From Clostridia bacterium (GTDB lineage: Bacteria; Bacillota; DSM-521; Neomoorellales; SLTJ01), in contig JANLFO010000006.1 of NCBI GenBank assembly GCA_024653205.1, forward strand, positions 1-59,673: a DNA stretch of 59,673 nucleotides, read 5' to 3'. The notes beneath the pieces were generated by a model. It was given only the letters and a program-made list of their open reading frames with translations. It searched no databases and was not told the origin of the DNA. Position numbers and translations under genes: made by a program. Within the stretch, counting starts at the first letter, position 1; the number at the start of each line of letters is the position of its first letter. Shown here one piece after another: positions 34,092 through 38,780 of the stretch.

Positions 34092-34121
34092 TTGACAGGA
34101 CCTGGCCCTGGCAGATAGAAT
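34092..34121 (+). promoter_or_regulatory. Promoter of the arsenic-type island
   Basis: A perfect TTGACA (34092-34097) and TAGAAT (34116-34121), 18 bases apart, upstream of the small thioredoxin gene. An AT-rich stretch (ATATAGTTATAAAG) follows at about 34147 and might hold a regulator site. Confidence 0.7.
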
Positions 34122-34231
34122 GGGAAACGACGAGTAGTACATGTCTATATAGTTATAAAGCCATAGATCTTTGCGAAGCTCCTTATTCGTCCCGAGGGCG
34201 AATTTGTGGGGTCAAGGAGGAGGCGCCAAGC

Positions 34232-34474
34232 GTGGAGATTAAGGTATTGGGACCGGGCTGCAAGAACTGTCAGGCGGTGGAGGCCAGGGTGAAGGAAGTG
34301 CTGGCCGAACTGGGAATCAGCGCCGAGGTGCACAAAGTCACCGATCTGCGGGAGATCATGGAGTACGACATATTGACGACGCCCGGGCTGGTGATCAACG
34401 GCAAGGTCAAGGTCTTCGGCCGGGTGCCCAGCCACGACGAGATTCGGGAGTGGATAGCCGCCGAGCAGCAGTAA
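34232..34474 (+). CDS. Small redox-active thioredoxin-like protein
   Basis: An 80-residue thioredoxin-fold protein of the MTH895/TM0996 type. The redox motif is Cys10-Lys-Asn-Cys13 in GPGCKNCQ, and TTPGLVING carries the cis-proline. GTG 34232 follows AAGGAGGAGG. In other genomes these proteins often sit beside arsenite exporters and permeases, as here, and may supply electrons to arsenate reduction or to the selenoprotein that follows. There are no other thioredoxins in the window. Confidence 0.9.
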   Translation: MEIKVLGPGCKNCQAVEARVKEVLAELGISAEVHKVTDLREIMEYDILTTPGLVINGKVKVFGRVPSHDEIREWIAAEQQ

Positions 34475-34587
34475 CGAGGCAAGAAGGGTAGGCGCTGGAT
34501 TTGCTTTGCAAGGGAGAGCGGCACCTCGGGGCACGTGGGCAAGGAAGATAGGCTACAGAGCTCCCTGGGCGAGGAGGCGGATTTGTC

Positions 34588-35472
34588 GTGGCAAAAGTAA
34601 AGATCGTCTACTGCCGGGTTTGAGGCTACGCCGAACACGCCGCCAGGATGGCGGCAGCCATTGAGTCCACCCTGGGTCTAGAAGTGCAACTGGTGGAAGG
34701 TAAGGGCGGCATCTTCGAAGTATGGTGGGAGGACACCCAGATTTACAGTAACGCCGGCCGGTGCGGCCTGCTCCCGGAGGCGGAGGAACTGCTGGAGAGC
34801 CTGGAAGCCCACCTAGATACCTGCGGGCGGGCGGCTTCGGCAGGGGAGGCGGGTCCGTCGCCGGGCGGCCAGGGGGCGGAGCCCTGCTGCCAAGGGAGCT
34901 TGAGCGCCCTGGCGGCCGGCGGGTGTTGCGGCCCTACCGCCACCGGAGGTTGCGACGCGGTCGCCACCCGGGAGGCAGGCCCCAGGCGTCTGCGGGTGGA
35001 GTTCCTTTACCTGGACCGGGAGCAATGCTCGCGCTGCCGCGAAACGGAGCGGGTGCTGGAGGAGGCCCTGGGCGAGGTGGGGCCAGTCCTGCGCACCACG
35101 GGGATAGAGTTGGAGGTGCACAAGGTCCATGTTCAGACCGAGGAGCAAGCCCGGCGGCTGGGGCTGGTCAGTTCCCCCTCCATCCGGGTGAACGGCCGCG
35201 ACCTCGTGGGGGAGTTGCGGGAGAGCCGGTGCGATTGCTGTAGCGACCTCTGCGGCGACGAGGTAGATTGCCGGGTCTGGATTTACCAAGGAAAGGAGTA
35301 CGATGTTCCGCCTAAAGCCCTGTTGGTGGAGGCCCTGCTGCGGGCGGTCTACGGCGGCGAACCGGCCGGACCGCCTCCGGCGCCGGGGAAACTCCCGGAT
35401 AACCTGCGCCGTTTCTTCCGCGGCCGTCGGGCAAGCGGTCAGGCGAGCGGCGGGGCTTGCGGCTGCGAATAA
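34588..35472 (+). CDS. Rdx (SelW/SelT-like)-DUF2703 fusion selenoprotein, Sec at UGA 34621
   Basis: Read through an in-frame TGA (34621-34623), GTG 34588 to 35472 gives 294 residues. Residues 1-78 are a SelW/SelT/SelH-type Rdx domain: KVKIVYCRV-U-GYAEHAARM, with the redox motif Cys9-Arg-Val-Sec12, then GIFEVWWEDTQIYSN. A Cys-rich linker (CCQ, CCGPT) follows. Residues about 133-255 are a DUF2703 domain with CSRC, RLGLVSSPSIRVNG and CDCCSDLCGDEVDC; the tail ends CGCE. A hairpin with loop AGGAU lies 15 bases after the UGA, where bacterial SECIS elements occur. GAGGAGG precedes the GTG. Conventional callers would start at ATG 34648 and lose the redox site. The island suggests a role in arsenic or metal redox chemistry; no function is known for this fusion. 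Confidence 0.85.
34639..34655 (+). promoter_or_regulatory. SECIS-like hairpin after the selenocysteine codon
   Basis: GCCGCC (34639-34644) and GGCGGC (34650-34655) form a perfect stem with loop AGGAU, beginning 15 bases after the UGA. An outer GGCU/AGCC pairing (34624-34627 with 34656-34659) may extend it. A GG in the apical loop is what bacterial SelB recognises. Confidence 0.7.
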
Positions 35473-35487
35473 GGGGGGTGGGTATGG

Positions 35488-36576
35488 GTGGGCGAAGCGA
35501 CGATTGCCAGGCTTTCCCTCTTAGACCGTTTGCTGACTCTGTGGATCTTCTTGGCCATGGTGTTAGGCGTGGGGCTGGGTTACGTTTTCCCGGGGCTGGC
35601 CGATTTCCTGGACCGGCTGTCCATAGGCACCACCTCCATTCCCATCGCCATCGGCCTCATCGTTATGATGTATCCCCCCCTGGCCAAGGTGAACTACCGC
35701 GAGCTGGGCAAAGTCTTCCGTAACCGCAAGGTGCTGGCCCTTTCCCTGGTGCAGAACTGGATCATCGGCCCCATTCTCATGTTCATCCTGGCGATAGTCT
35801 TTTTGCATAACTATCCCGAGTACATGGTAGGGCTCATCCTCATCGGGCTGGCGCGCTGCATCGCCATGGTAATCGTCTGGAACAGTCTGGCGCGCGGAAA
35901 TACCGAGTACGCCGCCGCCCTGGTGGCCTTCAATTCCATCTTTCAGGTGATCTTTTACTCTATCTACGCCTACATCTTCATTACCGTCCTGCCTACCTGG
36001 ATCGGCCTGGCCGGCATGGAGGTGCACGTAACCATAGCTGAGGTGGCCACCAGCGTGTTGATCTACCTGGGCATTCCCTTTGCCGCGGGGCTTTTGACCC
36101 GGCTGTTCCTGGAGCCGGCCAAGGGGAGGGAGTGGTATGAGAAGCGCTTCGTGCCCAAGATCAGCCCCCTGGCCCTCATCGCCCTGCTCTTTACCATCGT
36201 GGTAATGTTTTCCCTCAAGGGCGAGTACATCGTGAAGCTTCCCCTGGACGTGGGGCGGGTGGCCCTGCCGCTTCTCGTCTACTTTGTGGTCATGTTCCTG
36301 GCGTCTTTCTTCCTTAGCCTGCGCCTGGGCGTGAACTATGCCCAGACCGCGAGCCTCTCTTTCACCGCCGCCAGCAACAACTTCGAGCTGGCCATTGCCG
36401 TGGCGGTGGCGGTCTTCGGCATCGAATCCGGGCAGGCCTTTGCGGCGGTGATCGGGCCGCTGATCGAGGTGCCGGTGATGATCAGCCTGGTTAACGTGGC
36501 CCTGGCCTTTTCTCGAAGGTATTACACTCCGGAGGGGCTGCCCAAGCTGCGGCCGGTGGCGGCAAGGTCAAGCTGA
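35488..36576 (+). CDS. arsB: ACR3-family arsenite efflux permease
   Basis: A 362-residue protein with about ten membrane helices. [17 protein letters not shown] contains the conserved Cys of ACR3 transporters and [31 protein letters not shown] and [13 protein letters not shown] are family blocks. ACR3 exports arsenite, driven by the proton motive force. Start GTG 35488; the gene follows fifteen bases after the selenoprotein, on the same strand. The name arsB is often used for ACR3 genes; acr3 is equally correct. Confidence 0.95.
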
Positions 36577-36756: not shown

Positions 36757-37083
36757 ATGCCGATTAATGAGCGTACCTTGCAGTTACAGGCCGATCTTCT
36801 GAAGGCGCTGGCCCATCCCACGCGCCTGCGCATCCTGGAGTACCTGCGCGACGGTGAGCGCTGCGTCTGCGAGATTACCGAGCAGCTTGAACTGGAGCAG
36901 GCCAACGTTTCGCAGCACCTGGCAGTGCTCAAGCGCCAGGACTTGGTGAGCTCGCGCAAAGACGGCCTGCGCGTGCTTTACCGCATCAACTACCCGGAAA
37001 TCTACGAGCTTCTGCAGACTGCCAAGCGTATACTTCACCTGCAGGCCAAGGCGACGGTTGCCATTCTGGAAGAAATAGATTAA
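36757..37083 (+). CDS. arsR: ArsR/SmtB-family metalloregulator
   Basis: A 108-residue winged-helix repressor. LKALAHPTRLRILEYL is the family start; the sensor motif is Glu-Arg-Cys36-Val-Cys38-Glu-Ile in GERCVCEIT, the alpha-3 cysteine site of arsenite sensors, and EQANVSQHLAVLKRQDLV is the recognition helix. Arsenite binding would release it from DNA. ATG 36757 follows GGGAGAGAGG. Between the ACR3 gene and the ArsP-type permease gene, in the same direction. Confidence 0.95.
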   Translation: MPINERTLQLQADLLKALAHPTRLRILEYLRDGERCVCEITEQLELEQANVSQHLAVLKRQDLVSSRKDGLRVLYRINYPEIYELLQTAKRILHLQAKATVAILEEID

Positions 37084-37336: not shown

Positions 37337-38386
37337 ATGGCGATAGTATTGGAAATGCTTAGGAGTGGCGTTGCGGAGCTGGGCGAGTACCTTTCTGCCC
37401 ACGTTCTGGGCTGTTTGGTTCCCGCCTTCTTCATTGCCGGGGGGATCGCCGCTCTGGTGAGTACCGGCGCGGTGCTGAAGTACTTCGGACCTACTGCCAA
37501 GAAGTACGTCTCCTACGGGGTAGCCTCGGTTTCGGGAACAGTGTTGGCGGTGTGTTCCTGCACCATTCTGCCCCTTTTCGGCGGGATCTATCGGAAAGGA
37601 GCCGGTCTGGGTCCGGCCATTACCTTTCTTTATTCCGGGCCGGCCATCAATCTTCTGGCCATCGTGCTTACCGCCCGGGCCATAGGCCTTTCCATGGGCG
37701 TGGCCCGGGGAGCCGGGGCCATCGCGCTTTCTATAATCATCGGCCTGGCCATGGCCGCCGCCTTCCGGCGGGAGGAACTGGCCAAGGTGGCCAAGCAATC
37801 GGTCTTCGGCGTGGAGGCGGTGAGCAAGAGCCCCTGGCTCTATCTCTCCTTCTTCGGGGTGTTGGTGGCCATCCTGCTGGTAGGTACTTCCAAGGCTCCG
37901 GGGTGGGGGAAGGTGGCGGTGGTGATCGCCCTGGCCAATACCCTGGCATTGATTGCCTCGCAGTGGCTCGCGCCGGAGGAGGTCAAGACCTGGTTCGGGG
38001 AAACCGCCAAGCTGGCCCGGCAGATCTTTCCGGTGCTCCTTGTCGGGGTGTTTGTGGCCGGCATGATCAAGGCGGTGCTGCCGCCGGAGTGCGTGGTGGC
38101 CTACGTGGGCGGCAATACTTTGTCCGCCAACCTGCTGGCCGCGGTGGCAGGGGCGCTAATGTACTTCTCCACCCTGACCGAGGTGCCGATCATCAAGGCC
38201 CTTACCGACCTGGGCATGGCCAAGGGGCCGGCCCTGGCCCTGTTGCTTTCCGGGCCGGCGGTAAGCCTGCCCAACATGTTGGTGGTGGGGCGGATCATGG
38301 GGGCCAGGAAGACCGTACTCTACGTGGCTCTGGTAGTGGGGCTCTCCACCCTGCTGGGCCTGTGCTACGGCGCCATTGCCGGTTAG
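37337..38386 (+). CDS. arsP: ArsP-type (DUF318) permease
   Basis: A 349-residue membrane protein with about ten helices. The conserved CSCTILPLFGGIYRKGAGLG motif, YSGPAINLLAIVL and, in the second half, LMYFSTLTEVPIIKAL and SGPAVSLPNML identify the DUF318 permease family. In Campylobacter ArsP exports trivalent organoarsenicals; others in the family have unassigned substrates. ATG 37337 follows CCTAAGGAGG. A 253-base gap with several GTAGA motifs separates it from arsR; no gene was seen in it. Confidence 0.82.
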   Translation: MAIVLEMLRSGVAELGEYLSAHVLGCLVPAFFIAGGIAALVSTGAVLKYFGPTAKKYVSYGVASVSGTVLAVCSCTILPLFGGIYRKGAGLGPAITFLYSGPAINLLAIVLTARAIGLSMGVARGAGAIALSIIIGLAMAAAFRREELAKVAKQSVFGVEAVSKSPWLYLSFFGVLVAILLVGTSKAPGWGKVAVVIALANTLALIASQWLAPEEVKTWFGETAKLARQIFPVLLVGVFVAGMIKAVLPPECVVAYVGGNTLSANLLAAVAGALMYFSTLTEVPIIKALTDLGMAKGPALALLLSGPAVSLPNMLVVGRIMGARKTVLYVALVVGLSTLLGLCYGAIAG

Positions 38387-38543: not shown

Positions 38544-38780
38544 GTGCGGAAACTGGCTCAAAAGATGCGAAGTATTCTCGGGCTGGGCACGCAACCGGTG
38601 GCGGTCAACTTCTACCGGGCCCAGGAGGCGCTGACGCAGGAGCGCACGCCCGAGAAGCTCAGGTACTGCCAGGCGCTTATGAAGGCGCGGGAAGGAGAGA
38701 GGGTGATACTCACACTGGACAACCTCTCCTGCCCGGCGGCGTTCGGCTTCCGGCCCTTGCCGGAAAAGATCGCCTCCTGA
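38544..38780 (+). pseudogene. Truncated DUF169 gene
   Basis: The first 78 residues of a DUF169 protein (usual length about 210-260): GLGTQPVAVNFYRAQEAL, RYCQALMKAREGERV and SCPAAFGFRPLPEKIAS. A TGA occurs where the family has glycine (EKIAS-stop-EML), and the reading only continues plausibly for six or so codons before homology is lost. GTG 38544 follows AAAGGGGG. It converges on the VapC remnant, so both seem to have lost their ends in one rearrangement. Confidence 0.75.

Follow-up and report, generated by a model that had tools for sequence, protein, structure and literature searches.

A predicted UGA-encoded selenoprotein with fused Rdx and DUF2703 domains in an arsenic operon of a Clostridia bacterium

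Introduction

In an arsenic operon of a Clostridia bacterium (DSM-521; Neomoorellales; SLTJ01), the reading frame of a two-domain Rdx-DUF2703 protein is interrupted by a TGA codon, which raises the questions of whether this codon is a stop or is decoded as selenocysteine (Sec), and of what the protein would do beside an arsenite exporter. The whole stretch of DNA that was analysed, called the window here, comprises 59,673 nt (GCA_024653205.1, contig JANLFO010000006.1, positions 1-59,673, forward strand), and the host genome is 2.46 Mb in size and 98.8% complete. An earlier sequence-only reading of the window had proposed a selenoprotein, and its claims are taken up with the results that bear on them.

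Results

With TGA read as Sec (U), the frame between positions 34588 and 35472 (+ strand) encodes 294 amino acids from a GTG start to a TAA stop and contains no other in-frame stop. The TGA (34621-34623, + strand) is codon 12 and lies in frame between VAKVKIVYCRV and GYAEHAARM, where the predicted Sec12 forms a CxxU motif (CRVU) with Cys9. An AGGAGG sequence at 34572-34577 (+ strand) is a likely Shine-Dalgarno sequence for GTG 34588, and none was evident upstream of ATG 34648. The sequence-only reading had held that the open frame on both sides of the TGA restores a Cys-x2-Sec Rdx motif, which the frame and the PF10262 match described below confirm, and that annotation would begin at 34648. 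The mechanical ORF finder did place the start at this ATG, which overlaps the hairpin loop; a record truncated there would show nothing but DUF2703 and would lose the Rdx active site.

Profile searches assigned residues 3-72 (34594-34803, + strand) to the Rdx (SelW/SelT/SelH) domain (PF10262, 49.9 bits against a gathering threshold of 22.6) and residues 135-249 (34990-35334, + strand) to the DUF2703 thioredoxin-fold domain (PF10865, 108.9 bits against 23.6). A low-confidence, Cys-rich linker spans residues 81-132 (34828-34983, + strand); similar CC motifs occur in the fused homologue L025, and the linker Cys motifs are missing from the fusion relatives of family f14. The DUF2703 half carries C147xxC150, S196-P197, and C215, C218, C222 and C228, and in 32 DUF2703 sequences C147, C150, C218, C228 and S196-P197 were invariant, with C215 and C222 nearly so. 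The best structure matches of the Rdx half were the SelW-family crystal structures 2oka, 2ojl, 2obk and 2fa8 (TM 0.77-0.85 by target), thioredoxin-family matches being weaker, and the AlphaFold model of the fusion (pLDDT 69, pTM 0.51) is unreliable in its interdomain arrangement. None of the NCBIfam models (June 2026) scored above its own cut-off on the fusion protein: TIGR02174 (CXXU_selWTH, scored with C in place of U) was marginally below at 33.6 against 34.2, NF041051 (SelTWH_Campy) reached 48.7 against 88, NF049942 (DF family (seleno)protein) reached 49.9 against 70, and no ArsD-family match was obtained in this search. The domain matches thus agree with the earlier description of an Rdx domain joined through a Cys-rich linker to DUF2703. 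The accompanying statement that no described function was known concerned the fusion; for DUF2703 itself a role has been proposed, as the arsenate-induced DUF2703 gene of a Rhodococcus ars cluster was suggested to encode the thioredoxin that acts as reductant for ArsC (PMC6514093).

A profile of the Rdx half was then compared with 398 genomes of the host phylum (Bacillota). Matches were found in 27 genomes, 25 of them with an in-frame TGA, and these counts are non-independent trials because the genomes are mutually related. The TGA occupied the CxxU column in all 24 aligned TGA homologues, which come from many families (the remaining one, L075, had no extracted sequence), and the strand before this column (KIVYC or EITYC) was conserved as protein. 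In the two homologues without TGA, the column is Cys in L079, whose genome (G361) has no selA above the cut-off (21.9 bits), and CGA (Arg) in a fused gene labelled both L058 and L025 in the same metagenome-assembled genome (L025, 5974-6927). The latter genome keeps selA, and the six-pair SECIS stem of the gene is intact, which fits the expectation for a recent UGA to CGA change. Because CGA stands at the Sec column though selA is kept, Sec may be dispensable there, or the copy may be decaying or mis-sequenced. With this one Arg exception, the column contained Sec or Cys and not random residues, the outcome that the sequence-only reading had set as its test.

A hairpin with a perfect stem and an AGGAU loop, noted earlier 15 nt past the TGA, is present at 34639-34655 (+ strand), in which GCCGCC (34639-34644) pairs with GGCGGC (34650-34655) around the loop (34645-34649). 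The single-sequence fold of the 51-nt stretch was unexceptional (z = -1.2), and therefore the hairpin was judged by covariation across homologues. Counted from the TGA, the 5-nt loop begins at +22 in the 22 extracted TGA homologues, and its second position is G in 22/22. The stem covariation over 21-22 homologues was 0.472 as against 0.159 for shuffled alignments (0/500 shuffles as high) and at most 0.135 for slid-partner controls; 94.3% of the stem cells were paired, and 15 cells showed two-sided compensatory changes. Since the stem sits within codons, a null model was used in which synonymous codons were redrawn and each protein was kept. The observed 4.73 of 5 pairs exceeded this null (3.59 +/- 0.16, maximum 4.14 in 2000 trials), as did the 17 full stems (3.1 expected, maximum 10). 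The stem was weak at the SECIS position of one TGA homologue, L076, and absent at that of the Cys homologue. An Rfam scan gave no relevant match. The window hairpin lies just past the UGA and has the small guanosine-containing loop described for bacterial SECIS elements (PMC1088965). Being conserved and covarying beyond the synonymous-codon control, it behaves as a SECIS apical hairpin, in agreement with the earlier proposal.

All four genes that the sequence-only reading had listed for a search of the genome (selA, selB, selC and selD) were present in the host. The selA gene (601 bits), selB and the tRNASec gene (76.7 bits) lie side by side on contig C18, and selD (G000:C5:66947-67873, L016) carries an in-frame TGA within LTCSAGU, at the known Sec position of SelD (the canonical CSAGU loop). 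This UGA in selD itself points, independently of the Rdx gene, to decoding of UGA as Sec in this host. Among the genomes with TGA-bearing Rdx genes, selA was above the cut-off in 25/25, against a background of 256/398. In two other genomes selA and a standalone Sec-Rdx gene are no more than about 0.7 kb apart (G401:C61:153308-155104, L073; G365:C2:19828-22123, L074).

Six further fused genes were found, five in one family (f14; G178, G032, G116, G226 and G202) and one in another (G164), and six of the seven fusions have UGA and one has CGA (Arg). All seven fused Rdx domains group in a single clade (support 100/98), in which the window gene is sister to the other six in a midpoint-rooted tree, and this monophyly fits one fusion origin in the sample. 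Among relatives of the same order, most carry an unfused DUF2703 preceded by a Cys-rich N-terminus, and a plasmid search returned two DUF2703-only matches and no fusion. The 3' ends of five f14 relatives (L057, L059, L060, L062 and L063) read TGA-Ser/Lys-TAG/TAA, where the window gene ends in ACGCE-TAA, and a CCCGC-AGTTT-GCGGG hairpin with a T-run always follows 13 nt past this C-terminal TGA. A second Sec at this codon was not counted; because the hairpin ends in a T-run, the TGA is probably a stop followed by an intrinsic terminator, which is the simplest explanation, and a 'star'-type C-terminal Sec is possible.

The neighbours named in the sequence-only reading were all found by profile match on the + strand: an MTH895/ArsE-family small thioredoxin with a CKNC motif (34232-34474; TIGR00412, 107.8 bits, cut-off 62), the arsenite efflux transporter ACR3 (35488-36576; TIGR00832, 464.6 bits, cut-off 282.8), an ArsR/SmtB-family repressor (36757-37083; NF033788, 105.9 bits, cut-off 55), and an ArsP_1 or SaoE-SO_0444-like permease (37337-38386; PF03773, 248 bits; NCBIfam SaoE and SO_0444 below cut-off). 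An arsenite efflux gene and ArsR on the same strand, the mark of an ars operon, are thus given by ACR3 and ArsR. A possible operon promoter by consensus match (TTGACA-18-TAGAAT, 11/12 consensus bases) lies at 34092-34121 (+ strand), and we infer that the neighbouring ArsR regulates the operon. An imperfect palindrome, TCTATATAGTTATAAAGCCATAGA (34144-34167), a candidate ArsR operator, is located past this site and ahead of the thioredoxin gene. Farther downstream, a DUF169 gene (38544-38780) is cut short to about 77/209 profile positions. No Trx-type ArsC was found in the operon; elsewhere in the genome, two LMWPc matches, one YwlE-like and the other weak, were considered as such a partner and rejected.

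The neighbourhoods of relatives were searched with proteins from the window and from L025/L037. Near the fusions, ACR3, ArsR, ArsD, ArsA and an ArsE thioredoxin were found in G178; ACR3, ArsR and an ArsE thioredoxin in G226; ArsA, ArsD and ArsR in G164; and ArsM, an ArsE thioredoxin and ArsR in both G116 and G202. The ACR3 proteins near fusions of other families were 80-82% identical. At G032 (L085), none of the ars genes searched for was seen, and just DUF6951 and corrinoid genes were present. Among DUF2703-only loci, ArsP-type permease, ArsE or ArsM genes lie near L090-L092 and L095, and L093, L094, L096 and L097 have no ars gene among those searched. The arsenic part of the chemistry suggested earlier is therefore matched by a context that recurs in other families; the organoarsenic part is no more than a hint, for ArsM occurs near some relatives but no organoarsenical enzyme was found in the window cluster. 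At L085, L086 and L088, genes for a B12-binding corrinoid protein and DUF6951 are directly upstream of the fusion. Two of these loci also have ArsM downstream, and a corrinoid-linked arsenic methyl chemistry is possible there.

Discussion

On the sequence evidence, UGA 34621 is very probably decoded as Sec12 by SelB-tRNASec, which would make the gene a selenoprotein gene; the insertion would be directed by the SECIS hairpin 15 nt further on. Alternatively, the TGA could be a genuine stop codon or the result of a nonsense mutation, with the functional protein beginning at ATG 34648 and lacking the Rdx active site; mechanical ORF calls begin there and one homologue has the sense codon CGA. This is highly improbable given that the TGA recurs at one column over many families, with Cys in a selA-less genome, that the hairpin covaries, that AGGAGG precedes GTG 34588, and that the strand upstream of the codon is conserved as protein.

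Conservation of the DUF2703 Cys and Ser-Pro residues, the SelW fold and the published DUF2703 roles point to a selenol/thiol relay that takes part in arsenical reduction or passes As(III) on to ACR3, an exact function to which we give about an even chance. We lean slightly towards the explanation as a whole, namely a Sec12 selenoprotein acting as a cytosolic relay of the arsenic operon. The protein would contain two thioredoxin folds one after the other: the first, at the N-terminus, is the Rdx domain with Cys9-x-x-Sec12, and the second is DUF2703, which has a CxxC of its own together with a cis-Pro-type Ser-Pro and another four conserved Cys. As the selenolate, Sec12 would attack either an arsenical or a partner protein that carries a mixed disulfide, and Cys9 would resolve the adduct, with electrons supplied by the CxxC of DUF2703 or by the neighbouring ArsE-type thioredoxin. 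The As(III) so formed would stay bound to the Cys clusters until it passes to ACR3 for export.

The main rival of the relay is an As(III) or metal chaperone without catalytic turnover, comparable to ArsD in its service to ArsA. Sec and the Cys clusters would then be soft ligands that bind As(III) (or Hg, Cu or Zn), and ACR3 or the ArsP-type permease would receive the bound ion from them. The conserved DUF2703 Cys clusters beyond CxxC, the Cys-rich linker and tail, the ArsD and ArsA genes adjoining the fusions at L084 and L089, and the reported fusion of DUF2703, a member of the thioredoxin clan, to ArsD (PMC3091736) all favour such a role. However, the CxxU and CxxC pairs, each in its own thioredoxin fold, and the conserved Ser-Pro are typical of redox proteins, and the f14 fusions lack the linker cysteines. 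Moreover, Sec is seldom kept merely for binding, and we regard the chaperone as rather unlikely. With similar reserve, we tentatively consider an uncatalogued two-domain selenoenzyme in which Sec12 itself reduces or thiolates an (organo)arsenical and DUF2703 recycles Sec12 and passes As(III) to ACR3; if this were true, arsenic resistance in these bacteria would depend on selenium supply. A general peroxide or thiol repair selenoprotein that stands beside ars genes by chance would be in keeping with the standalone Sec-Rdx proteins of many phylum genomes, but it is improbable because the ars neighbourhood recurs at fusions of several genera and at some DUF2703-only homologues.

If the role of the relay is confirmed, the fusion would represent a recurrent selenium-dependent component added to ars operons, and the function of SelW-type Rdx domains, long unexplained, would become testable within a defined pathway. 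Literature searches that paired DUF2703 and selenoproteins, Rdx and arsenic, or Sec and Acr3 yielded no account of the fusion, which Haft and Tolstoy (2025) may mention, and Table 1 of a 2026 review of 119 selenoprotein families (PMC13188914) has no Rdx/DUF2703 entry. The 'SelW-like' protein of Desulfotomaculum reducens in a 2006 list could be such a fusion under an old name.

Knowledge of bacterial Sec-Rdx (SelW-like) proteins goes back at least to 2005 (PMC1088965). The window protein shares the domain and the CxxU Sec position with SELENOW-like (SelW/Rdx, PF10262) selenoproteins, and its SECIS placement is that of the standalone Sec-Rdx genes compared; however, SELENOW-like proteins are catalogued as a single PF10262 family, whereas the window protein is an Rdx domain fused to DUF2703 in an ars operon. 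The DUF2703 protein of Rhodococcus aetherivorans BCP1 likewise has a CxxC thioredoxin-fold domain beside acr3 and arsR, but its gene is next to arsC and arsO and no Sec was reported (PMC6514093). NF049942, the hypothetical protein DF of deep-Sep (PMC12013277), is related to the DUF2703 half, although its 96-position model spans part of that half and no Rdx part. ArsD is also a thioredoxin-fold Cys protein of ars operons, but it has no Sec and serves ArsA, which the window cluster lacks. Sec has likewise been recruited to arsenic biology in ArsM, ArsM/AhpD, ArsM/DUF2284 and arsenate reductase (PMC13188914), whose families differ in being methyltransferases or ArsC-type reductases. What is new here is the domain architecture, while the Sec-Rdx kind and, from ArsM, Sec in an arsenic context are known.
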